Shown one piece after another: positions 9,324 to 23,686 of a stretch of DNA of 43,119 bases (positions are counted from its first letter, which is position 1; every line of letters begins with the position of its first letter). Below the pieces are notes generated by a model. It was not told where the DNA came from, ran no database searches, and saw only the letters and a program-made list of their open reading frames with translations. The stretch covers positions 1-43,119 of the forward strand of contig WTHR01000130.1 of the NCBI GenBank assembly GCA_011523045.1, written 5' to 3'. A program made the translations under genes and the position numbers. Source of the stretch: Gammaproteobacteria bacterium. Lineage in GTDB: Bacteria > Pseudomonadota > Gammaproteobacteria > Arenicellales > UBA868.

Positions 9324-10130
9324 TCATACATCTTTTTGCCAGCTGTACTTTTTAACCAGAACCCCAACGATCGTGTCTAAAGTGAACCCGATGATGCCGA
9401 TAACGACCACCATCGCGGTAAGGTGGTCATAGGCCAGTGTTTCGCGTGCGTCCTTGATCGCATATCCCAAGCCAGAGCTCACCCCAAGCAACTCTGCGGG
9501 CACAAGCACCACCCAGGCGATTCCCAACGCGAGACGAATGCCGGTGAAAATATCAAAAGCAATCGCTGGAAATATGACCTGCGCGAGCATTTTGTGAAAG
9601 TTGGCGCCGAGGTTTTTAGACACCTTGAACCAGGCAGGATCCACTTTTTTGAGTCCCGCTGCCGTCGCATAGATCACCGGCCATATGGCGGCTACAGCGA
9701 TGAGGAAGATGATCGCCTGATCCCATTTAGGAAATACGAACACGACGATGGGCATCCACGATAGAGGGCTCACCATCCGCAACAACTGGAACGGCTCGTT
9801 GGTCACCTGCTCGGTGATCTTGCTGAGACCAATTGCTATTCCGATTGGCACCCCAATGAGAATAGCAAGGAAAAGTCCGATCAGAAGCCGATAACCGCTC
9901 GCAATAACGTGCTCAGCTATGTAGCCAGTTTCTATCAAACCTGGCACCGCTTTGAGTGTCGGAACAAGTCCGAACTTCACAAAGCTGCTCGTGGCTGGAT
10001 TGGCTTCCAGGAACCAACCGCCTATTGCCCACAGGCCGATGAGAATCGCAAAACCCACCGCCGGATACGCAATACGATCGATCAGCCAGGTCTTAACGAA
10101 GCTTTGAGATTCTTGGGCGTTTTCGATCAT
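9324..10130 (-). CDS. ABC transporter permease, NrtB/SsuC/TauC type (second of two)
   Basis: 268 aa with about six membrane helices and the binding-protein-dependent permease fold. The EAA-loop region reads VDPAWFKVSKNLGANFHKML. The family imports anions such as nitrate, bicarbonate, cyanate and sulfonates. It is similar over its length to the permease encoded just upstream (18-base gap), so the membrane channel may be a heterodimer. The operon context (ATPase, two permeases, divergent CynR-like regulator, cyanase and thiocyanate hydrolase nearby) points to cyanate or thiocyanate as substrate; this is inferred. Confidence 0.9.
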   Translation of the reverse strand: MIENAQESQSFVKTWLIDRIAYPAVGFAILIGLWAIGGWFLEANPATSSFVKFGLVPTLKAVPGLIETGYIAEHVIASGYRLLIGLFLAILIGVPIGIAIGLSKITEQVTNEPFQLLRMVSPLSWMPIVVFVFPKWDQAIIFLIAVAAIWPVIYATAAGLKKVDPAWFKVSKNLGANFHKMLAQVIFPAIAFDIFTGIRLALGIAWVVLVPAELLGVSSGLGYAIKDARETLAYDHLTAMVVVIGIIGFTLDTIVGVLVKKYSWQKDV

Positions 10131-10148
10131 TGGTTCTTCTGAATGAAA

Positions 10149-10967
10149 TCAGTTACGGTGCCAGCTGAAGCGTTTAATCAGGGCCTGGCAGATGCCGTCC
10201 ATCAAAAAGCCGATGATGCCGATAGCAAGAATCGTGACCGCAAGGTCGGCATACATCAAGTTCTCTCGTGAGTCTTGAATGGTGTAACCCAGACCTGATG
10301 TGATGCCGAGAAATTCTGCAGGGACGATAACAATCCACGCGACACCCAGCGCGAGACGGATACCCGTCATCACATCGAAGGCGATCGCCGGGAGGATAAT
10401 TTCCTTGAGGATATCCCACCAACTTGCCCCAAGGTTTCGAGCCACCTTAAACCAGGCCCGATCCAACTTGGCGAGGCCTGCTGCGGTAGCGAAGGCCACC
10501 GGCCAGACCGCAGCCATCGAGATCAGGAAGATAATTGCCTGATCCCAAGTTGGCATCGCAATCACCGCGATCGGCTCCCAAGACAACGGGCTCACCATGC
10601 GCAGGAACTGAAACGGGGTATTGCTGAGTTTGCGAAATACGTTGCTTCTCCCCATCAGAATACCCACGGGGATACCCGTAACGATCGCGAGCAGCAAACC
10701 TATGCCCAGGCGATACCCACTCGCCTGGCTGGCGTCGAGCAAGGTGCCTGACTGAACCATGTAAGGCACTGCATCAATGGTGGGGAACGGACCGAAATCC
10801 GCGAAGCTCATGGTGGCCGGGTTGCTCTCCAACAACCACCCGCCAAACCACCACAGGGCAAACAAGATTCCAAGACCGATCGCGCTGAAGAGCACTCGGC
10901 GCAGGACCATGACGATCAAATCGACCGCCACTGAGGATCTCTGAGGAGTACCGATTTCAGCAGCCAT
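10149..10967 (-). CDS. ABC transporter permease, NrtB/SsuC/TauC type (first of two)
   Basis: 272 aa with about six membrane helices. The EAA loop reads LDRAWFKVARNLGASWWDIL, and LGVAWIVIVPAEFLGITSGL is typical of NrtB/SsuC proteins. Many residues match the following permease (for example the shared segment RMVSPLSW and the ESNPAT/EANPAT pair), so the two arose by duplication. Most members of this transporter family have one permease gene and a homodimeric channel, so two adjacent, diverged permeases are notable. Confidence 0.9.
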   Translation of the reverse strand: MAAEIGTPQRSSVAVDLIVMVLRRVLFSAIGLGILFALWWFGGWLLESNPATMSFADFGPFPTIDAVPYMVQSGTLLDASQASGYRLGIGLLLAIVTGIPVGILMGRSNVFRKLSNTPFQFLRMVSPLSWEPIAVIAMPTWDQAIIFLISMAAVWPVAFATAAGLAKLDRAWFKVARNLGASWWDILKEIILPAIAFDVMTGIRLALGVAWIVIVPAEFLGITSGLGYTIQDSRENLMYADLAVTILAIGIIGFLMDGICQALIKRFSWHRN

Positions 10968-11005
10968 CGTAAGTAACGCTACAAATCAAGAAAATACGGG
11001 CGCGA

Positions 11006-11773
11006 TTAGTGGGTCGCGGCGGAGGCCTGTCGGAAGGTCTCCATAAGATGTCCGCGAATCTTCTGAACCTCTGGATCCTGCGCAGTTCTTTCTTCCGGCA
11101 AATCGACCATGATCTCTTCTTTAATCTTGCCGGGAGATCCCGCCATAATTACCGCTCGATCGGCCATCAGTACCGCCTCGTCAATACTGTGAGTCACAAT
11201 CACAAGGTTGATACCCATGCTTTTGGCAATCGACCGCACGTCTTTTTGCAAAGAGGCCCGGGTAAATGCGTCAAGCGCGGAGAAGGGCTCGTCGAGAAGT
11301 AACATCTCGGGCTCCATAACGAGAGATCTCGCCAGCGCCACTCGCTGCTGCTGCCCGCCGGACAGATCCTGCACGTTGGACTCCGCATATTCTTCCAGAT
11401 CCACCAGCTTGATTGTCTTTTCGACACGTTCGCGGATCTTGTCTTCGGCAAAATTGGCAAACTTGAGTCCAATGCCCACGTTCTGACTGACCTGCATCCA
11501 CGGGAAAAGGTGGGGCGCCTGAAACATCATGACCCACTTGGGTGAAGGCTCTTTTACTTCAACGTTATTGAGTCGGATACTGCCGGCTGTGGGAGCGAGC
11601 AATCCGGCCATGATATGGAGCAGCGTAGACTTCCCGCAACCGGAACGGCCAATGATTGCCAACACTTCTCCCGGTTTGGACTCAAGATTGACCTTGTCAA
11701 AGGTCACCGGTCCTCGAGATGAATAGCTATGGGTTAGATCCTGTACGGAGATCTGCACACCGCTTCTGTCCAT
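11006..11773 (-). CDS. ABC transporter ATPase, NrtD/SsuB/TauB type
   Basis: 255 aa with all nucleotide-binding motifs: Walker A GRSGCGKST (42-50), Q-loop Q85, signature LSGGQ (137-141), Walker B LLLDEP (158-163) and switch H195. The length and the MFQAPHLFPWMQV segment fit the nitrate/cyanate/taurine importer subfamily. First gene of the import operon, divergent from the LysR regulator at 12172. No binding-protein gene is in this operon; the likely partner is the NrtA-like protein at 20208-21617. Confidence 0.93.
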   Translation of the reverse strand: MDRSGVQISVQDLTHSYSSRGPVTFDKVNLESKPGEVLAIIGRSGCGKSTLLHIMAGLLAPTAGSIRLNNVEVKEPSPKWVMMFQAPHLFPWMQVSQNVGIGLKFANFAEDKIRERVEKTIKLVDLEEYAESNVQDLSGGQQQRVALARSLVMEPEMLLLDEPFSALDAFTRASLQKDVRSIAKSMGINLVIVTHSIDEAVLMADRAVIMAGSPGKIKEEIMVDLPEERTAQDPEVQKIRGHLMETFRQASAATH

Positions 11774-12171: not shown

Positions 12172-13110
12172 ATGAACCGCAATACTATTTTTCCAAGGTC
12201 CCTTAAGTACCTCCTCGCGGTCGCAGAGTATTCGAGCTTTACCCGGGCCGCAGAGTCTCTGTTTGTCTCTCAGCCGGCTCTATCCCAACAGATTAAACAA
12301 CTGGAGGAGCAGGTCGGGGTACAACTGCTGGAGCGCTCCGGCCGTAACGTGCACCTCACTGATGCGGGTGATCTCTACGTCCGGCATGTCGAGCGGGCAC
12401 TTGCAGAGATCAATGCTGCCTCAGCCGCACTCGATGATCTCAGCGACCTTTCGCGAGGTCACGTGTCCCTTGCTATGACACCCATCACTGACTACCTCAC
12501 AGCGAGTCTGATCCAGGAGTTTGTCAGTCAACATCCGAATATCTCGATCGACATCAAAGAGATGACCCAACACGAGGTCGAGGAAGCTGTGCTTCAAGAT
12601 CAAGTTAGCGTGGGCGTCATGTTCAGTAACGAAACGTTGCTCACCACGGGGCGTGATGAGCTTGAGGCCATGACGCTGAATGCTGACGCGCTGGTCCTCG
12701 CGTCGAGCAAAAATGCCGCTCCAGAAAAAACTGATCTCGATCAGAACTCGTCGACGGAGTTGATGAAACAACCTCTGGCGCTGCTGAACAACCGCTTTGA
12801 GATGCGACGGCAGATCGACGCCTACTTCACCACTCACAATCTAGACCCGAGAGTCACTCTGGAAGCCAACTCCCTGGGATTCCTGATCGAGATGGTCAAG
12901 TACGGGGGGCTTCGCACCATACTCCCCGAATCCATCGTCGCATCAATGGAGGATCTGATTTCTATCCCCGTAGAACCTGCTCTACCCGCCCACACTGCTA
13001 CGATGATTATCCGCAAGGCAGCGTACCGCAGCCGAGCCACTGATGCGTTTTTGCGCCTCGCCCTGCTCTGGGATTTGCCGAGTGTATTGGGGCACCGGCG
13101 CGGATCCTAG
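12172..13110 (+). CDS. LysR-family transcriptional regulator, CynR-like
   Basis: 312 aa. The N-terminal winged helix-turn-helix (about residues 9-66) contains FTRAAESLFVSQPALSQQIK and LEEQVGVQLLERSGRNVHLT. An effector-binding periplasmic-protein-like domain (about 90-300) follows, as in CynR, CysB and Cbl. It is divergent from the ABC importer and close to cynS, the classic position for a CynR-type activator that senses cyanate. The effector here could be cyanate or thiocyanate. The 37-bp element shared with the scnB promoter suggests that it also controls thiocyanate hydrolase. Confidence 0.88.
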   Translation: MNRNTIFPRSLKYLLAVAEYSSFTRAAESLFVSQPALSQQIKQLEEQVGVQLLERSGRNVHLTDAGDLYVRHVERALAEINAASAALDDLSDLSRGHVSLAMTPITDYLTASLIQEFVSQHPNISIDIKEMTQHEVEEAVLQDQVSVGVMFSNETLLTTGRDELEAMTLNADALVLASSKNAAPEKTDLDQNSSTELMKQPLALLNNRFEMRRQIDAYFTTHNLDPRVTLEANSLGFLIEMVKYGGLRTILPESIVASMEDLISIPVEPALPAHTATMIIRKAAYRSRATDAFLRLALLWDLPSVLGHRRGS

Positions 13111-13143: not shown

Positions 13144-14391
13144 TTAGCCGGTATCTCTGTCGAAAAACGAAGGGGCGTAGAGCTGGTGGGAGATCAGCGT
13201 ACAAATGGTCACCGCAATAATTGAAACAAGCGCCGCTTCGTAAGAGCGCGTGAACTCAAAGATGATGAGCACCGTGGAGATCGGGGCTCCAAACACTGCA
13301 GCAGCTACAGCAGCCATGCCGGCAATACTGAGACCCGCACCACTCGCAATCCCCAAGGTCGTGGCCACTTTACCCAACAAGCACCCCACGCCTGCGCCCA
13401 CAAACAACGAGGGGAGATAGATACCGCCGTGCAGACCCGCACCCACACAAGCCACGGTCAGCACAAGTTTTGCGGCTATCAGGATCAGCACCGCCGCCGC
13501 CGGCAGGCTGTCGCTCAAAAAGTCCTGAACCACATCAATCCCCAGGCCAAGTGCGCCGGGGACCCAAAGCCCTACGCATGCGCATAAGAGAGCAGCAAGG
13601 ATTAACGGCCATGCAGGCAGGTTGGGCAACTGATCCACTTTATCTGTCAGTTTTCCGAGCAAGGCCATAAACAGCACCGCGGTTATCGCAAACACGGGCG
13701 CACTCACGATGAGCAATGGAATGAATTCCATCGTGAGGCTATGGACCAATCCATCGAAATAGGGTCTGCCGCCAACCTGAAATTGATCCGAGAGCATCGC
13801 GGCCGTAATGGCACAGATCGATATCGGTGCAATGGCTGGTACGGAAAAGCGGCGCAGAACCACTTCATGACTGAAGACGATGGCGGCGAGGGGAACTCCG
13901 AAACCCGCAGCGATGGCACCCGCCACGCCGCAACCAATCCACGTCTCTCCGGGGATTCGAGTTTTGATGGCTTTTGCAACGGCAGCCCCTACCGTTCCGC
14001 CGAAGTGCACCAGCGGACCGTACTGTCCAACGGAAGCCCCTCCACCGACTGCTATCAACGCGGCCAAGGTAGAACCGAGGCCGCCTTTGATATCTAACGG
14101 CTTTTCTGATTGCACAGCCGCGATGGTCTCGCGGGGTGAGTGAAAACGCTTGATCCCAAGCGCCCGCCTCAAGATCAGGATGAGTCCCGCGGATCCGAGC
14201 AGAAAAAATGCCGGCACCAGGCGCGGCAACTCCCCATCGATAAACGTCTCCGCAGTTTTGGAAAACGTATTGATGGAAGCGGCGGCCCAGAGAAACGAAC
14301 CCGCCGCAAAAGCCATCACCGAACCGATCGTTACACCGACGACCACGTAAAGGATCGAATCGACAAAGATGTTGCTCGGCTTTACCGCCAT
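13144..14391 (-). CDS. CLC-family anion channel/transporter with Tyr in place of the gating Glu
   Basis: 415 aa with about ten to twelve membrane segments. CLC landmarks are GGLHGG-like GAGLHGGIYLP and FGAPISTVLIIFEFT. The canonical GxxGREGP motif, which carries the external gating glutamate, here reads GASVGQYGP, putting Tyr at position 124. A glutamate in VFSHEVVLRRF may match the internal proton glutamate. CLC proteins pass Cl-, NO3- and SCN-. It lies 21 bases after cynS on the same strand, so a role in thiocyanate or cyanate movement, or in charge balance, is plausible. Classed as CLC with high confidence; its ion and mechanism are inferred. Confidence 0.88.
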   Translation of the reverse strand: MAVKPSNIFVDSILYVVVGVTIGSVMAFAAGSFLWAAASINTFSKTAETFIDGELPRLVPAFFLLGSAGLILILRRALGIKRFHSPRETIAAVQSEKPLDIKGGLGSTLAALIAVGGGASVGQYGPLVHFGGTVGAAVAKAIKTRIPGETWIGCGVAGAIAAGFGVPLAAIVFSHEVVLRRFSVPAIAPISICAITAAMLSDQFQVGGRPYFDGLVHSLTMEFIPLLIVSAPVFAITAVLFMALLGKLTDKVDQLPNLPAWPLILAALLCACVGLWVPGALGLGIDVVQDFLSDSLPAAAVLILIAAKLVLTVACVGAGLHGGIYLPSLFVGAGVGCLLGKVATTLGIASGAGLSIAGMAAVAAAVFGAPISTVLIIFEFTRSYEAALVSIIAVTICTLISHQLYAPSFFDRDTG

Positions 14392-14412
14392 AGTCCTCTA
14401 GCGTACCCTAAG

Positions 14413-14853
14413 TTACCAGGCGCTGTATTGCAGGTACTTGCCGCTCAAACTCAAGTGGACACGATCTCCTTTTTCGCTTTTCTCACGGGAAACGGTCATA
14501 TTGAAATCGACGGCTGACATGATCCCATCACCGAACTCCTCGTGGATAAGTTCCTTGATCGTTTCCCCATAGACTCCGACCATCTCGTATAGCCGGTAAA
14601 TTGCGGGGTCGGTCGGCACCGTTTGCTCCCACTGCTTATTGGGGTACTGCTGCAGTGCTGTTGATACAGTGCCCGGCAAACCCAGGCAGGAGGCAACCGC
14701 GTCCGCATCCGATTTTTCAAGATGGTTCATGCCAAGACAGGCTGACACCACGAACTCCGTCGACATCGATGTCGTTTCGGCAATTTCCCGCCAGGACAGA
14801 CCCTTCTCGAGTTTTGCCGTTCTAATGTGATCCTTCATCTCTTCTTTCTTCAT
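14413..14853 (-). CDS. cynS: cyanase (cyanate hydratase)
   Basis: 146 aa against 156 in E. coli CynS. The N-terminal helical domain (LSWREIAETTSMSTEFVVSA) and the C-terminal catalytic domain are both complete. The three catalytic residues align at R87, E90 and S113 (in YRLYEM and DGIMSAVDF), equal to R96, E99 and S122 in E. coli. The enzyme decamer converts cyanate plus bicarbonate to ammonia and CO2. An AGGAC ribosome binding site precedes the ATG. It is probably co-transcribed with the CLC gene. It detoxifies cyanate and supplies nitrogen. Confidence 0.97.
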   Translation of the reverse strand: MKKEEMKDHIRTAKLEKGLSWREIAETTSMSTEFVVSACLGMNHLEKSDADAVASCLGLPGTVSTALQQYPNKQWEQTVPTDPAIYRLYEMVGVYGETIKELIHEEFGDGIMSAVDFNMTVSREKSEKGDRVHLSLSGKYLQYSAW

Positions 14854-14961: not shown

Positions 14962-15870
14962 TCAGCGCAGATCGCCAACGATATTCAGGTTGCACTCCAG
15001 ATCTTCGGCAAATTCCTGTCGACATCGGTTCGCAATGAGTTGTGCGAACTCGGCGAGTCTTGACCCATCGGAAGACTCGTTCGAAAAAATGATGTTAGGA
15101 AAAGATCGGTCGAGACAAAGACCTGTCCCCGGCAAGCGGATCTCTCCCAAGCGGCTTAATATCTGCGCCGCTTGCTCCTTCGGGCTTTTTCGCCCTGCCT
15201 CATCAGCATTTTCGTTTTTTTGGGAAAAGACGTGGCCGGTGCAGAGCGGCGCCGCAGGAAACATTTCTTCATGCTGGTGCTTCACATCAGCCCATGCCGC
15301 GTTGAGTTTTTCGGGAACTTGCTGAGGCAGATCGAGCACAGCTTGAACGATTACCGCGTTTCTAAGCGCAGCGGCGCGTCGGTCGGGACGCTCAAAGACA
15401 TCTCGCTTGAGGGTCTGGATGCGTCCATCCCGCAACACGACTGTCGCGCGCAGAATTCGTTCACAAAGACGCCTCCCAGAAAAACTTGCATTGGATGCAA
15501 TCGCGCCGCCGATGGTTCCGGGGACTGCTCCCAGAAATGTAAGATCTAGGCCAAGCTTCATGGCTTTTCTTACCACATCGCCTGTCAAGGCGCCGGCGCC
15601 GACACGAACGGTGCGCTCCGACAGCGCCTCAAAGCCCCCAAACCGGGCCCCAAGATAAACCAGCACGCCATCGAAGCGATCGCGGCTGAAGCACGTATTT
15701 GATCCACTTCCAAGAACCTCGACCGGAGTCCTCTCAGGCAGGTCACGAAGATAATCCCCCAGGTCTGCCATATGTGCTGGCTGAAAGAATACCTTCGCTG
15801 ATCCGCCGGAATGAAACCAGGTCAGATCAGTGAGATTCTTGTTTTCAATGAGCGTGCGTTGCATAGACAT
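14962..15870 (-). CDS. MurB-like FAD-binding protein lacking the MurB catalytic residues
   Basis: 302 aa, alignable over its full length with UDP-N-acetylenolpyruvoylglucosamine reductase. The FAD-binding half is well kept: LGSGSNTCF (about 53-61) and [18 protein letters not shown] (about 112-129). The C-terminal part keeps [11 protein letters not shown]. The catalytic positions differ: the usual GS-x-F proton-donor serine is GHVF (212-215), the C-terminal LExE glutamate is LECN (N294), and the YRxSxF arginine motif is absent near 165-175. It may bind FAD and have a different job. Its place just upstream of cynS is unexplained; a true murB should exist elsewhere. Confidence 0.8.
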
Positions 15871-16039
15871 CTCAACTGAGAACGACTTTTATCGAGGCGT
15901 TGCGGATCGGGGATCCGATTTTCTTACCCCATCGATAATCAAATCGTATTGGGAGTTCAGGTCTTGGCAATCTCTCGCGATACTCTCCGTGATACTCTAT
16001 TTTCTGCTTATCACATTGAACCCCGAGGGAGCCATCATC

Positions 16040-16510
16040 ATGAAACCGACGGATCTCAAGCCGCCATTTGATCTTGCGATAGCGACCCAAAAAGTAAGGA
16101 TGGCAGAGAACGCCTGGAATACGCGAGATCCTGAGAAAGTCAGCCTGGCCTACACAGAAAACAGTGTCTGGCGGAATCGGTCCGAGCATTTTCAGGGTCG
16201 AGCAGCCATCGTTGAATTTCTCACCCGCAAGTGGCAACGGGAACTGGATTACCGGTTAATCAAGGAACTTTGGGCTTTTTCCGATAACCGGATCGGGGTC
16301 CGTTTTCAGTATGAGTGGCATGATGAAAATGGACAGTGGAATCGATCGTACGGAAATGAACTCTGGGAATTCTCTGACGAGGGCCTGATGCGAAGACGCG
16401 AGGCCAGTATCAATGACATCAGCATCAGCGAGAATGATCGGCGGTTTCTGTGGACAGCTCCCGGACATCGCCCTGACGATCATCCGGGGCTGATACCGTC
16501 TCCTGAATAG
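16040..16510 (+). CDS. DUF1348 / NTF2-like (SnoaL-fold) protein
   Basis: 156 aa from ATG 16040, chosen because GAGGGA lies nine bases upstream; the frame is open from 15830 but the extra N-terminus is not typical. The protein is the small cone-shaped NTF2-like fold. Signatures include [37 protein letters not shown] and a Trp-rich [15 protein letters not shown]1348 members are common in proteobacteria and have no firm function. It is the only plus-strand gene between the sulfur genes and the MurB-like gene. It may be a lodger in the island or a small enzyme or ligand-binding protein of the pathway. Confidence 0.8.
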
Positions 16511-16542: not shown

Positions 16543-16956
16543 TCAGTTTTTTGATGCGCCTTCCGGATTCATTCCCTTGACGAGTCTGGCGAGCAAATAG
16601 ATAGCATCCTGAACATCAGGATCCTTGGCCATTCTCAGCAGTCCACCGTATCCGCCCGTCTTTGGATTCTTCGCGTTTACAGCGTCCATCATCGAACCCG
16701 AACGAAGCGCGTCCGCAAGACACTCGAGACTGTCCTGCGCCGCCGGTTGATTCAAAGCCTGGAGCAGGGACATCAGGCCCTGATTACGCGTTAAGCGATC
16801 CATCAGGATCATGCCTTCGCCCATCGCGCTGGCAAGACGAGTGACAATGTCATCGGTCATCGCGTCTTGTGCGGCAGAGATCGCCGCGGCGAGTTCGATC
16901 AGTTTTGCAAGGTCCTGGGGTTGACCCTCAGAGACCGGTGTTTCTGGACTAGTCAT
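16543..16956 (-). CDS. DUF1641 domain protein
   Basis: 137 aa. The C-terminal half carries the DUF1641 signature: GLMSLLQALNQPAAQDSLE, then a GGYGGLLRMAKDPDVQDAIY segment and LLARLVKGM. DUF1641 proteins are often encoded next to sulfide:quinone-reductase-type flavoproteins and formate dehydrogenase genes; they have no defined activity. Here it follows the flavoprotein gene by 45 bases and ends the dsrE-tusA-sqr-DUF1641 unit. A helper or membrane-docking role for the flavoprotein is a guess from context. Confidence 0.85.
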   Translation of the reverse strand: MTSPETPVSEGQPQDLAKLIELAAAISAAQDAMTDDIVTRLASAMGEGMILMDRLTRNQGLMSLLQALNQPAAQDSLECLADALRSGSMMDAVNAKNPKTGGYGGLLRMAKDPDVQDAIYLLARLVKGMNPEGASKN

Positions 16957-17001: not shown

Positions 17002-18135
17002 TCAGAGCAGGCCGCGCGCAGATGACCAATACCACTGGTTATAGGACATTTTCAGCATGTGCATGGACTTGGTCGGAGCCTTGATCTCTGGAGGATCAAT
17101 GTAATTGAAGCAGGCATTCGTTGCACGATCCTGATCCGCCTCAATAAAGCAATAAACCTTGCCATCATATTCGCGGGTTGCGGACCCTGTCCGAAAGATC
17201 GACGCGATATTCTCGCCGACCACTTCGCTCTGAAAGTGGGCCGTAGAACCCGTCTTGCTGATCGGCAAATTGCTGGTATCACCCACTACGTAGACGTTGT
17301 CGTGTCCTTCCATCTGCAACGAATAGCGGTCGGTCGGAATCCACCCGCCCTCTCCAAGATTGTTCTCCTCGATCACTTTCATGCCCCGATGCGGAGGAAC
17401 GGCAACGAGAAGATCAAACTCTTTTTCTGTGCCCTCTTCACTGTGCACAATTCGATTCTCAACGTCCACCTCCTTCATGTTAAAGAAGGTTTCATAGTCG
17501 ACTTCCATTCTTTCAAATTCGGGAACCGCCCAGGTGGCAATGTTCTCAATATTATGGATACGGGCGATCGGATAGGTGTATTTCAACTCCACCTTGTCTC
17601 TGATTCCTCGCTTTTCAAAAAATTCGTGCAGCATGAATGTGATCTCGATCGGGGCAATCGGACACTTATGCGGAACCCCCACCACAACCGCCACCTTACC
17701 GCCTTCAAAATCGCGCAGGCGTTTGAACATTCGGGTTGCGCCTTCGCGCGTATAAGGCGTTTCTGACGCCTCGGCAAGGCCCGGCACCTCATCGTAGACC
17801 GCCTCACACCCCGTGGCGATCACCAACATGTCGTAGTCATGGACCACGCCGCCTTTCGTCCTGACTTTATTCTGGGCCAGTTCAAATTCCTCAACCGGAT
17901 CTACAAAAAACCGGATGCCCGGTTCCAGCAAACTGGCCTGATCGCGAACGATGTCGTTCATTGCCATCTTGCCGAATGCGACATAAAGCAGCCCGGGTTG
18001 ATACCAGTGCTGATCGGTCGCCGAAAGCATGGTGATTTCGACCTTTCCGTCTCTTACCTCTCGAGCAAGCCGCCTCGCCACGTTATTGGCCACGATCGTG
18101 CCGCCCATGCCCCCACCAACAAATAAGATCTTCAT
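17002..18135 (-). CDS. sulfide:quinone oxidoreductase-type flavoprotein
   Basis: 377 aa. N-terminal FAD Rossmann motif LFVGGGMGGTIVANNVA (4-20), second motif LVIATGCEA with C110, PHKCPIAPIEITFMLHEFF with C158 at the position of a redox-active SQR cysteine, and C-terminal VGDTSNLPISKTGSTAHFQS (284-303). A further cysteine pair candidate is C329 or C342. SQR oxidises sulfide to polysulfur and reduces quinone at the membrane. The tusA and dsrE genes directly upstream fit a sulfur-handling role. The precise SQR type is not settled, and activity on another sulfur donor is possible. Confidence 0.88.
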   Translation of the reverse strand: MKILFVGGGMGGTIVANNVARRLAREVRDGKVEITMLSATDQHWYQPGLLYVAFGKMAMNDIVRDQASLLEPGIRFFVDPVEEFELAQNKVRTKGGVVHDYDMLVIATGCEAVYDEVPGLAEASETPYTREGATRMFKRLRDFEGGKVAVVVGVPHKCPIAPIEITFMLHEFFEKRGIRDKVELKYTYPIARIHNIENIATWAVPEFERMEVDYETFFNMKEVDVENRIVHSEEGTEKEFDLLVAVPPHRGMKVIEENNLGEGGWIPTDRYSLQMEGHDNVYVVGDTSNLPISKTGSTAHFQSEVVGENIASIFRTGSATREYDGKVYCFIEADQDRATNACFNYIDPPEIKAPTKSMHMLKMSYNQWYWSSARGLL

Positions 18136-18458: not shown

Positions 18459-18851
18459 TTAAAAGGACAGCAGCCTGCCATCCTCGGCGTCAGACAGAAA
18501 AGCGGTGAGTCCGGTTGCTGGGCCAAACTCAAGCGTCAGATCATCCGGGGTGATCTTCATCAGGTCCAAGGCCATGGAACAGGCCAGCAGCTTGGCGTCA
18601 CCCAGATCAGCGGCTTGCTCAAACAGCTTTCTGAAAGCAGGCACTCCTTCTGTCTCGATCAGACGACCAAACTCACCCTCTTCAGGCGCCGCGAGCTCGG
18701 CATTGTCCTTGGTGAAATACTGGAGTGCGTTCATGGAAAAGAAAACGGTGACGTCATCCCCGCTCGCTGCCGCAACCGATGCAACCATGGAAGCCATTTG
18801 AAGTTTCTCGAGCGTACCCGAAACACAGACTATCGAAAGCTTGTTGGACAT
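18459..18851 (-). CDS. DsrE2-like (COG2210-type) sulfurtransferase family protein
   Basis: 130 aa. The segment KLLACSMALDLMKI (about 88-100) places conserved C91 as in DsrE2/COG2210 proteins; another cysteine is C9. DsrE-family proteins bind persulfide sulfur and exchange it with TusA. The gene is followed by tusA after 39 bases. The rhd-tusA-dsrE2 theme is common in sulfur oxidisers, but no rhodanese gene is seen here. Confidence 0.87.
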   Translation of the reverse strand: MSNKLSIVCVSGTLEKLQMASMVASVAAASGDDVTVFFSMNALQYFTKDNAELAAPEEGEFGRLIETEGVPAFRKLFEQAADLGDAKLLACSMALDLMKITPDDLTLEFGPATGLTAFLSDAEDGRLLSF

Positions 18852-20207: not shown

Positions 20208-21617
20208 TTAGATCTCCAGAATCTCTTCGCGCTCGAAAGGATTGCCTCCCTGGGGCACGCTTGGATCATTTTTCCATGACGGATTGGCCATGAGTGCGTT
20301 CTTGACATACTCATACTGTACGAGATCATTGATCACGAACTCCGGATCCAGGGTATCCAGGAAGGTCCTGTCGCCGGTCACCAATGTCTCATTCTTCAGT
20401 TCATTGACCACCAGTCGGGTGGCCGACGGATAAGGCCATGCTTGGAAGTCGATGCGATTCTGACCCCACTCGGTATGACGGATCGCAGCAGGATTGTTGT
20501 AATACGCCGGATCGTAGAACATCATGGCACGCTCAACCACTTTGCTCGGGAAGGGGTAGTACTTCTTACCTTCACGCGACAGCAGCTGGGCAACCTCTTT
20601 TCGGTTGGATCCGGTGTAAAGCTGTGCCTTGACTACGGCATTGTGTACACCCTGTGCCCACGCGGCCCGTTCCGGATCCATTGCGTCGTCTTCATGCATC
20701 ACCACAACACAGCAGGGATGCCCCTTCCACACGTCACCGGTAAATCGGAGCACTTTGCCGCCGGCTTTGATCTCACCGAGCGCATTGAAAGGCTCAGCAA
20801 CACAGTAGCCATCGATCTTCTTAGCGGCCAGTGCAGGCGGCATATCAGGCGGCGCGAGCACTTGGAAGTTACATTCATTAGGCGCCAGAGCCGCGTCCTG
20901 CGCTCGGATCACCGGGGTGATTCCTGCCTCCTTCATGATCTTCTGGGAGACAATGTTATGGATTGAATACCAATACGGAACCGCAAACTGCTTTCCGCCG
21001 AAGTCTGCGGGCGTTTTGATCTCCGGGTTCACCACGATTGCCGAACCATTGCTGTGGTCCCAGGCCGTGATCTTCACGGGGAATTTATTGTTGTACCGCA
21101 TCCAGACTGGAATCGGGATGAGCATGTGCGTCAGATTGAACTTGTGGGCGGCGAATGCCTCCACCAGTGGTGACCAACCCCGAATCAGTGTCGGGCGTTT
21201 GGATTCAATTCCCTCTTCCTTGAAGAAGCCAAGCTCATGCGCGACCAACAGGGCTGCCGCATCAGTAATTGGGATGTAGCAGATGTTGACAACGGGATCG
21301 AATGCTTTTTTACCGAAAGCCGGCATGCTGCCCAGCCCAAGGCCGGCACCGGCCAGGGCTGCGCCCGTCTGCAGCACCGACCGTCGGCTTATCCCTGTCC
21401 CGAGAAACCCACCAAACAGAGGGTCCGAATTAATCTTGAGAAACGGATCGTCAATCTGATCTCCGAAACTTTTGGCGTTCAGCGGCAGGCCGTTCTCATC
21501 GACTGGGCCCCCGTCTATGAACTGAGCTTCTTCCTCATCGAGAATATCATCTGCGATTGCCTGCGACTTTGTTTTCGCGGCCAGCAGTTTTTCTTCCTGC
21601 GTTAACTGTTTTTTCAT
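20208..21617 (-). CDS. NrtA/CmpA-type ABC solute-binding protein with Tat signal
   Basis: 469 aa from ATG 21617, chosen because GGAGGAGG is just upstream (the frame is open to 21638). The Tat motif SRRSVLQTGAALAGAGLGLG begins at residue 77, after an unusually long polar N-terminal stretch. The mature part starts with the NrtA-like region VNICYIPITDAAALLVAHEL and has the two-lobe binding fold. Related proteins capture nitrate, bicarbonate or cyanate in the periplasm. It lies between thiocyanate hydrolase and cobalt-transport genes, so thiocyanate or cyanate is the likely ligand. It probably feeds the permeases at 9324-10967. Confidence 0.9.
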   Translation of the reverse strand: MKKQLTQEEKLLAAKTKSQAIADDILDEEEAQFIDGGPVDENGLPLNAKSFGDQIDDPFLKINSDPLFGGFLGTGISRRSVLQTGAALAGAGLGLGSMPAFGKKAFDPVVNICYIPITDAAALLVAHELGFFKEEGIESKRPTLIRGWSPLVEAFAAHKFNLTHMLIPIPVWMRYNNKFPVKITAWDHSNGSAIVVNPEIKTPADFGGKQFAVPYWYSIHNIVSQKIMKEAGITPVIRAQDAALAPNECNFQVLAPPDMPPALAAKKIDGYCVAEPFNALGEIKAGGKVLRFTGDVWKGHPCCVVVMHEDDAMDPERAAWAQGVHNAVVKAQLYTGSNRKEVAQLLSREGKKYYPFPSKVVERAMMFYDPAYYNNPAAIRHTEWGQNRIDFQAWPYPSATRLVVNELKNETLVTGDRTFLDTLDPEFVINDLVQYEYVKNALMANPSWKNDPSVPQGGNPFEREEILEI

Positions 21618-21766
21618 GTCTTCGCTTTCCTCCTCCATTTTGTCTGCAGAGCTTTAACCCTTTAAATGTCTGTACAAATCTCCTTAACTCCTTACAAATG
21701 TTTACTGATACTTGTTGCTGGCAATCTTGCCTGCTGGCCCCCAGGGCTCAAAGAACTGTGCTCTCA

Positions 21767-22111: not shown

Positions 22112-22819
22112 CTAATGGCCGTAAGGATGGATTGCGGGGATCACCGGTCTCTTGTCATCCGCCTTACGATCCGCGCGGGGCATCGCCACGCCAATCAGAC
22201 AGTCGCGGGTAACAATTTCGGCAAGCTGATCCTCGGTCCAGCCGTCGGTGCCTTCTGGCCGCACCGGCATAACCACGTAACGGGTCTTCTGATTCGAATC
22301 AGCCACGCGAATCTCAACGTCTTCAGGCAACTGCAGGCCGAATTCAGACAACACCTGCCGCGGCCAGCGCACCATCCGGCGTCGATAGTTGGGCGTACGG
22401 TACCACTCGGGAGATTGACCCAGAATCGGCCTCGGATAGCAGGAACACAGCGTGCAGACCACGACATGCTTCAACTTGGGCGTATCAACCAAAATCCGTG
22501 GGTTGCAGTAGTCACTGGGGGTGCCAAAGTTCGAGGGCATGCTGGTAATCCAGTTGATACCTACCTCCAAACTCGCTTTGACGGGGTCATCAATACACAA
22601 CTGCTTGTAATCTTCATCTAGCCAGGCTTTGGCGACGAGTCTTGCAGCAGGGGTAGGACCCAATGTGTGCATATATTCCGTCCACTCGTTGTGATCGGCT
22701 TGTGTAAACAGTCCTTTCTCAATGCATAACTCGCGGACTGCGACTTCCAGCGCCTCAAAGTCGCTGACCTCATCCACCATGGGCGCGGCTTTGTGATCAT
22801 GATCATGTGAATTTGACAT
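22112..22819 (-). CDS. scnC: thiocyanate hydrolase gamma subunit (cobalt-binding)
   Basis: 235 aa, matching the known gamma subunit (243 aa). The cobalt claw motif is C122-T-L-C125-S-C127 followed by YPR. In this motif class the second and third cysteines are oxidised to sulfinate and sulfenate, and the CTLC form indicates cobalt rather than iron. The rest aligns with nitrile hydratase alpha subunits. The enzyme hydrolyses SCN- to carbonyl sulfide and ammonia. The N-terminal HDHDH tract may bind metal. It follows scnA by 49 bases. Confidence 0.96.
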   Translation of the reverse strand: MSNSHDHDHKAAPMVDEVSDFEALEVAVRELCIEKGLFTQADHNEWTEYMHTLGPTPAARLVAKAWLDEDYKQLCIDDPVKASLEVGINWITSMPSNFGTPSDYCNPRILVDTPKLKHVVVCTLCSCYPRPILGQSPEWYRTPNYRRRMVRWPRQVLSEFGLQLPEDVEIRVADSNQKTRYVVMPVRPEGTDGWTEDQLAEIVTRDCLIGVAMPRADRKADDKRPVIPAIHPYGH

Positions 22820-22868
22820 GCCGTTTTCCTCTTTTCATGTCGTGAGTGTGAAATACCTTCGGATTGAC

Positions 22869-23222
22869 TCAGAGCGCCTCGAGCCAACGCTCGGAGAGTT
22901 CTGTTTCAAGCGTATCGGCCTCGAACTTCTTGGGATAATCTGGCCACAGGTCAGTCTGCTTGAAGAGCAGGCTGTAGAACCATTCTGGGCTGTCGGTGTT
23001 ATCCCACGCTTCGTCTTCTGCCGGCGGGCTTTCGTATACGAGTTTTACAACTGTCGCTTCCGCCTCACGAAGATACATCTGCGAGCGGGTATAGAAGATA
23101 TCGGGCAGATTGCGGATCCGAACCCGGTCCCCCACCTTAAATTTCGCGGGAGGTGCCTCACCTTTGAAGCACTGCGGATCCCCAACGTTCGTTGCTTTTT
23201 CTACATGGTGGCTGCTGCTCAT
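22869..23222 (-). CDS. scnA: thiocyanate hydrolase alpha subunit
   Basis: 117 aa. The SH3-like barrel starts with KFKVGDRVRIRNLPD, as in the C-terminal half of nitrile hydratase beta subunits. In thiocyanate hydrolase the nitrile-hydratase beta chain is split into two proteins, ScnB (N-terminal half) and ScnA (C-terminal half). That split is exactly what is seen here and distinguishes the enzyme from nitrile hydratase. The start overlaps the scnB stop by four bases (23219-23222). Confidence 0.94.
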   Translation of the reverse strand: MSSSHHVEKATNVGDPQCFKGEAPPAKFKVGDRVRIRNLPDIFYTRSQMYLREAEATVVKLVYESPPAEDEAWDNTDSPEWFYSLLFKQTDLWPDYPKKFEADTLETELSERWLEAL

Positions 23223-23686
23223 AAGTCATGACCCTTTGCATCGTAAAGAAGACCGTCCTGTTTGTGGGCGCGCTGTTTGACCTCTTCGATCTTGTCGATC
23301 AGTTCGGTCAGTTTGACGTGCTGCTTATCCACGAGGATCAGCGCGATCGTCATCAACCAGCGGCCGTAGTAAGGCAAGCCAAGATAGATTGTCTGTCCGA
23401 CGTCGACATTCTGGCGGCGGCGGCGCTCCTCAGCATTCCAAACCCCTCGCCAGGCAAGCACCTCGCAAGTCACAAAGGTGTTGTGTTCCCAGATCTCTTC
23501 CTCTTTCTCTTCCCAGGTAATCGGAACGTCTGCCTCACCTCCGACATCGTGGGACGCGCGGGTGTAAGCGCGGAAATGGGCGTTATCGATCAAATCGCCG
23601 GTGGGGGCGTGCTGCGGCTGATGTAGCGCCGGCTGCAACTGGCCGACGATATTGAGGTGCCGCATGATTTTTTCGCGGTTAGACAT
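23219..23686 (-). CDS. scnB: thiocyanate hydrolase beta subunit
   Basis: 155 aa (about 157 in Thiobacillus). It matches the N-terminal half of nitrile hydratase beta, with WEEKEEEIWEHNTFVTCEVL and LPYYGRWLMTIALILVDKQ. It forms part of the active-site wall around the cobalt site of ScnC. It is the first gene of the scnB-scnA-scnC-activator operon, the gene order known for this enzyme. A 235-base regulatory region precedes it. Confidence 0.93.
   Translation of the reverse strand: MSNREKIMRHLNIVGQLQPALHQPQHAPTGDLIDNAHFRAYTRASHDVGGEADVPITWEEKEEEIWEHNTFVTCEVLAWRGVWNAEERRRRQNVDVGQTIYLGLPYYGRWLMTIALILVDKQHVKLTELIDKIEEVKQRAHKQDGLLYDAKGHDL

Follow-up and report, generated by a model that had tools for sequence, protein, structure and literature searches.

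The window, that is, the whole 43,119-nucleotide stretch of DNA analysed, contains an island of a sulfur bacterium in which a thiocyanate hydrolase (scnABC) is combined with a cyanase and, directly beside the latter, a MurB-like FAD protein. A CbtA gene also lies within the window.

9324..11773, minus strand: ABC importer of the nitrate/taurine type, two permeases and one ATPase (profile matches)
12172..13110, plus strand: LysR-type regulator (profile match)
13144..14391, minus strand: ClC-type anion channel/antiporter (profile matches)
14413..14853, minus strand: cyanase, cynS (NCBIfam equivalog TIGR00673, 138.7 bits, above cut-off)
14962..15870, minus strand (read 15870 to 14962): MurB-like FAD protein, 302 aa (open reading frame and profile matches)
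14989..14991, minus strand: Asn294, replacing the catalytic Glu (alignment)
15232..15234, minus strand: His213, replacing the proton-donor Ser (alignment)
15379..15384, minus strand: Asp163-Arg164, where canonical MurB has Tyr-Arg (alignment)
15484..15525, minus strand: FAD segment 2, [14 protein letters not shown], residues 116-129 (position in the reading frame and alignment)
15697..15711, minus strand: FAD segment 1, GSGSN, residues 54-58 (position in the reading frame and alignment)
15830..16510, plus strand: DUF1348 (SnoaL-like) protein (profile match)
16543..16956, minus strand: DUF1641 protein (profile match)
17002..18135, minus strand: SQR-type pyridine-nucleotide-disulfide oxidoreductase (profile matches)
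18459..18851, minus strand: DsrE-like protein (profile matches)
20208..21638, minus strand: NMT1-like ABC substrate-binding protein (profile matches)
22112..23686, minus strand: thiocyanate hydrolase (best matches 2dd4 chains C, B and A)
22112-22819, minus strand: thiocyanate hydrolase gamma (2dd4 chain C)
22869-23222, minus strand: thiocyanate hydrolase alpha (2dd4 chain A)
23219-23686, minus strand: thiocyanate hydrolase beta (2dd4 chain B)

The MurB-like gene and cynS share a strand, the former 108 bp upstream of the latter, and cynS lies 21 bp upstream of the ClC gene. The preliminary description had placed an open reading frame at 14962-15870 beside a cyanase without giving its strand; the frame is indeed open at exactly these coordinates, on the minus strand, and the neighbor at 14413-14853, also on the minus strand, is a cyanase by TIGR00673. 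Met3 is the likely start of the protein, because the alignment of its relatives begins there. On the opposite strand, the first 41 bases of the DUF1348 reading frame overlap the MurB-like gene; the listed start of that frame is probably too early, as its domain begins only at residue 78.

FAD_binding_4 is the sole Pfam domain found in the MurB-like protein (61.9 bits, cut-off 26.4), MurB_C giving no match at E<=0.01, and the NCBIfam MurB equivalogs stay below their cut-offs, with NF010480 as the best (131.3 bits versus 259, residues 4–226) and TIGR00179 reaching 50 bits (cut-off 144.5). The nearest PDB chain by sequence (phmmer) is the MurB of Brucella ovis (9dtk, 8.4e-23, residues 9-217). An AlphaFold2 model was obtained from an 8-row alignment (mean pLDDT 74.4, pTM 0.67), used instead of a shallower 5-row alignment, which gave a mean pLDDT of 42.4; three distant MurB contigs from scans of viral contigs had been added for depth. 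Structural comparison (VIA-align) again gave 9dtk as the best match (Z 22.7, 270 residues, 5.2 Å), and among the matches listed 13 MurB entries rank above every other entry, followed by DprE1, D-lactate dehydrogenase, and other oxidoreductases. A MurB fold is thus predicted across the full length, including the region that lacks a MurB_C profile match, in agreement with the earlier view of a whole-length protein, and the FAD_binding_4 and fold matches together correspond to what we take to be the VAO/PCMH-type FAD superfamily. Pocket details cannot be read from the model, given its large overall rmsd and the several loops, including 205–208 and 219–226, with pLDDT <50.

As a separate observation, two IMG/VR viral contigs carry short MurB-like genes whose products have Cys in the donor motif (SAGC) and end in an atypical C-terminus (L120 1495-2271 and L122 1321-2076), each directly after a gene resembling a polysaccharide pyruvyl transferase, and on another contig classed as viral a MurB-like gene follows a helicase-like gene (L119 1438-2223).

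The catalytic positions were compared in an alignment of 54 canonical MurB rows with four variants, namely the window protein and its counterparts in three other genomes of the genus (G011, G016, and G017), the G016 row consisting only of the portion after a frameshift. The canonical rows comprise 52 of 54 selected loci plus two canonical MurBs of the same genus, with L045 and L066 left out because their reading frames did not pass a motif filter; they were picked as best matches, not at random, include some near-copies, and do not cover type IIb MurBs with a Cys donor (e.g., L024-L026). At the columns of H213, N294, D163, R164, and Q217, all 54 canonical rows have Ser, Glu, Tyr, Arg, and Asn, respectively, whereas the variants (in the order window/G011/G016/G017) read H/H/H/Y at column 213, N/N/N/K at 294, D/D/D/E at 163, R/R/R/D at 164, and Q/R/K/L at 217. 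Thus, the Ser, Glu, and Tyr present in 54/54 canonical rows are absent from all four variants, and the donor position of the MurB-like protein holds neither Ser nor Cys. These data bear out the preliminary description in that the serine motif is GHVF and the C-terminal glutamate is replaced by N294. Its third point, loss of the arginine motif YRxSxF, stands only in part: the motif is altered, with Asp163 in place of Tyr, but Arg164 aligns with the canonical Arg and is kept, and the proposal that all three catalytic positions are changed in the window protein is accordingly rejected.

Losses at other canonical positions include an invariant Arg, replaced by His200, the Asn four residues past the Ser, replaced by Gln217, and, in the HxNFxxN stretch, the second Asn, replaced by Ser263. 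Among the 67 columns conserved in at least 90% of the canonical rows, 22 lack the canonical residue in every variant row that is not gapped at the column, 17 retain it in all four variants, and 28 are mixed. The FAD region fares differently in that G56, F112, P117, G118, G121, G122, A123, N127, and A128 are kept in all variants, and both FAD segments could be located in the window protein, as had been described earlier. Residues invariant among the variants and specific to them include His200, Ser126, and Cys283. In Pseudomonas MurB, Ser-239, Glu-335, and Arg-166 are reported to bind the nicotinamide moiety of NADP+, and Asn-243 its adenosine moiety; NADP+ and the sugar substrate UNAGEP occupy one common site, and type IIa enzymes use Ser as the proton donor, type IIb enzymes Cys (PMC3689657). 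Since the equivalents of residues forming this NADP+/substrate site are lost, the Pseudomonas residues being equated with the alignment columns by motif, both MurB half-reactions should be crippled in the MurB-like protein, and MurB chemistry by it is very unlikely.

The same genome contains a canonical murB. A MurB_C search of the assembly (completeness 90.5%) gave one match, on contig C112, where murC precedes the gene and an ftsQ-like gene, ftsA, ftsZ, and lpxC follow in dcw order, these neighbors being named from their sequences; with the window protein as the query, two places only were found in the genome, the MurB-like gene and this murB. Because a canonical murB is present elsewhere, the MurB-like protein is not the cell-wall enzyme, just as the preliminary description had supposed, and the MurB-like gene as the genome's own and sole murB is rejected. 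That it works as an additional MurB whose catalytic residues have moved elsewhere in the sequence would be in keeping with the whole MurB fold predicted by the model, but is highly improbable in view of a donor position with neither Ser nor Cys, the loss of the Glu and several other canonical positions, and the murB in the dcw cluster.

As for its origin, the best canonical match of all four variants is one and the same MurB (L069, in another family of the phylum, f234; 32.6–34.2% identity), whose gene sits in a dcw cluster, and the window protein is 32.9% identical to its nearest f234 relative versus 23.8% to the murB of its own genome. In the tree, the variants form a very long branch outside both groups, and the MurBs of their own class group together (100/98). 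A tree in which the variants are forced to join their own family is worse by 21.7 log units (p=0.057), and one in which they join f234 by 4.6 (p=0.28). A simple recent duplication of the own murB is not favored by the f234 best matches and the 100/98 grouping, although p=0.057 for the forced placement falls short of a clean rejection. The comparisons of sequence rather point to a probable horizontal transfer from a MurB of alphaproteobacterial type, a label that we presume from the Brucella match. The GC3 of the MurB-like gene, 0.55, is slightly under that of its neighbors and uninformative on base composition.

Within the genus, cynS occurs in 5/20 genomes (the window's own, G000, and G009, G011, G016, and G017), and the MurB-like gene occurs in the same five, intact in three, frameshifted in G016, and reduced in G009 to a remnant of the last third with an in-frame stop. 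It thus accompanies cynS in 5/5 genomes and is present in 0/15 without cynS (Fisher 6e-5, which is not a count of independent events, the genomes being related by common inheritance). In G016, the frame is broken by one additional base and the contig contains ambiguous bases, so that an assembly error may be the cause. The ClC gene of the same contig is likewise broken into two frames (L028 11935-12730). Beyond the window, high-scoring variants were found only in G011, G016, and G017 among 100 relatives. The best other matches newly met in wider searches reached 96.8 bits in 33 family genomes, 92.1 in 109 of the order, 122.6 in 369 of the class, and 199.8 in 398 of the phylum, compared with 403–581 bits for the variants, and those outside matches whose residues were inspected are canonical. 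A six-peptide scan of 84,980 species gave four loci, of which one is close (80% identity), in the Acidiferrobacteraceae MAG SAT1475, which we take to be the assembly of G016.

Matches to scnC were obtained in 10/369 class genomes, the window's own included, and 12 other scn loci were compared with the window (nine from the class, plus those of G025, G037, and G066). The core scn cluster recurs across these loci, and cynS is present in five of them (L110, L113, L115, L116, and L134); none of the 12 gave a MurB-like match by tblastn (1e-8 or 1e-6), although three (L113, L117, and L133) end at contig ends and are a poor test of absence. The occurrence of the variant beside cynS or scn genes in other genomes, a point raised in the preliminary description, hence holds inside the genus, wherever cynS is present, and does not extend to the 12 other scn loci compared. 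In the sister-genus genome G025 (L131, contig C33), the slot between DUF1641 and ClC holds a Methyltransf_11 reading frame (14013-14783) and neither cynS nor a MurB-like gene, and the slot beside ClC seems variable. A thirteenth scn locus, in a sixth member of the genus (L135, G019:C71), has an scn cluster of 95-100% identity; its contig stops inside the SQR gene, so that it was not scored for the MurB-like gene, and no cynS was found in the G019 assembly. Besides the main scn cluster, two of the other loci (L116 15194-15959 and L117 7266-7971) carry, a few kb away, a second, more divergent scnA/scnB-like pair with 47-62% identity to that of the window.

Selection on the MurB-like gene was estimated after trimming the first eight aligned codons, comparisons of this gene with G016 being limited to the last 230 codons. 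Between the window and G011, dN/dS is 0.269 (bootstrap 0.20–0.37), versus 0.008–0.108 for 12 other genes, including 0.048 for cynS; between the window and G016, it is 0.266, versus 0–0.13 for the others except DUF1348 (0.288). Ratios to G017 are mostly unusable because dS is saturated for most genes; in amino-acid identity to G017, the MurB-like gene is the minimum of the locus, at about 43-44%, its neighbors ranging from 61 to 90%. Its reading frame is open at 73% and at 43% identity, and in neutral simulations of the reading frame only 18, 8, 2, and 0 of 2000 runs remained free of stops at 200, 260, 400, and 600 substitutions, respectively. Identity to G017 rises to 71% at residues 76–106 and 76% at 107–135, against 25–45% elsewhere, and against G011 dN/dS is 0.13–0.14 in the FAD segments (48–75 and 107–135) and 0.59 in the N-terminal part, so that FAD segment 2 falls within the most constrained part of the gene. 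From the dN/dS values, the open frame, and the regional identities, it follows that the gene is kept as a protein and its FAD region is kept best. The constraint is real but loose, about the loosest of the genes compared, and amounts to weak purifying selection.

On balance, we lean towards regarding the gene as a MurB paralogue, probably acquired horizontally, that now serves as a dispensable accessory FAD protein tied to the cyanase. A MurB paralogue of alphaproteobacterial type would have arrived ahead of cynS, within the thiocyanate/cyanate island of a single genus. As cell-wall synthesis is served by the canonical murB of the genome, the paralogue would have been released from that duty, and weak purifying selection has held its reading frame open. 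The protein presumably still binds FAD and would be unable to use enolpyruvyl-UDP-GlcNAc; use of NADPH in the manner of MurB is not expected either, since NADPH relies on the same residues in MurB. Its role may be that of an accessory flavoprotein, either a minor oxidoreductase or a redox-responsive FAD protein, made together with the cyanase. Any such function would be non-essential, given the remnant in G009 and the frameshift in G016.

This reading is preferred over two others. That the gene is a decaying passenger, a laterally acquired murB without present function whose residual constraint stems from a function held until recently, has a minority but appreciable chance of being correct: its dN/dS is the highest in most comparisons, G009 retains only a truncated copy with a stop, the G016 copy is frameshifted, and none of the 12 other scn loci carries it. 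However, the frame is intact in three lineages, including G017 at saturated dS, the bootstrap interval of dN/dS lies far under 1, and the FAD segments are the most constrained part; moreover, an assembly fault may underlie the frameshift in G016, considering the ambiguous bases and the second break in ClC. Less probable still is a neofunctionalized flavoenzyme dedicated to a step of thiocyanate/cyanate use, with a pocket rebuilt around Asp163, Arg164, His213, and Asn294. The residues invariant among the variants (His200, Ser126, and Cys283), the strict co-occurrence with cynS within the genus, and the location ahead of cynS on the same strand would fit such an enzyme, but scn clusters with cynS elsewhere do without the gene and G009 has only a remnant; furthermore, G017 has Tyr, Lys, and Asp for His213, Asn294, and Arg164, so that the variants do not share the proposed new active site. 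Finally, the carrier genomes are fragmented draft assemblies, but the same gene in the same place in the separate assemblies of G011, G016, and G017, together with the profile and fold matches, leaves a negligible probability that there is no real gene or an assembly artefact.

The defined new function in the pseudohalide pathway advanced in the preliminary description is not supported, in view of the loose constraint, the G009 remnant, the G016 frameshift, and the failure to find the gene in the other scn and scn-plus-cynS clusters compared. A catalytic role in pseudohalide metabolism is possible, and the recruitment of the MurB fold into that metabolism, for an FAD reaction or redox sensing unlike that of MurB and tied to the cyanase, is a tentative proposal that we consider doubtful. 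If the protein acts with the cyanase, it would represent an unforeseen flavoprotein added to thiocyanate/cyanate use; if it is a passenger, it would be a warning against inferring function from the neighborhood in an island alone.

The locus is worth comparing with known systems. The scnABC genes of the window are alike to the thiocyanate hydrolase cluster of the 2dd4 kind, which in the 12 other loci goes without the MurB-like gene. Another protein of the MurB fold studied as an FAD carrier rather than as a cell-wall enzyme is LucY, a homologue of metagenomic origin that serves as a fluorescent FAD protein; its FAD-contacting active-site residues are, in contrast, reported to be highly conserved, with no catalytic loss described (PMC4408115). 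In the literature searched, most subscription journals being outside its coverage, no paper dealing with a MurB relative from a thiocyanate or cyanate cluster turned up. Brucella ovis MurB (9dtk) is the best match in both sequence and fold and shares the FAD segments, whereas in the MurB-like protein the Ser, Glu, Tyr, and a pocket Asn are replaced, its C-terminal part is left out of the sequence match, and its gene, unlike that of 9dtk, is located in a thiocyanate/cyanate island. Also among the fold matches listed is the S229A variant of E. coli MurB (1uxy), a MurB equally without the proton-donor Ser, the kinetics of which were reportedly the subject of Benson et al. 1997. However, 1uxy carries one engineered change, whereas the MurB-like protein also lacks the Glu and further conserved residues. 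Cell-wall synthesis is normally the one purpose of MurB. A lineage in which the FAD site is kept but the donor Ser, the Glu, and several other conserved residues are lost is nature's counterpart to the S229A mutant, and this combination of a kept FAD site with catalytic loss suggests that the MurB fold can leave peptidoglycan synthesis.
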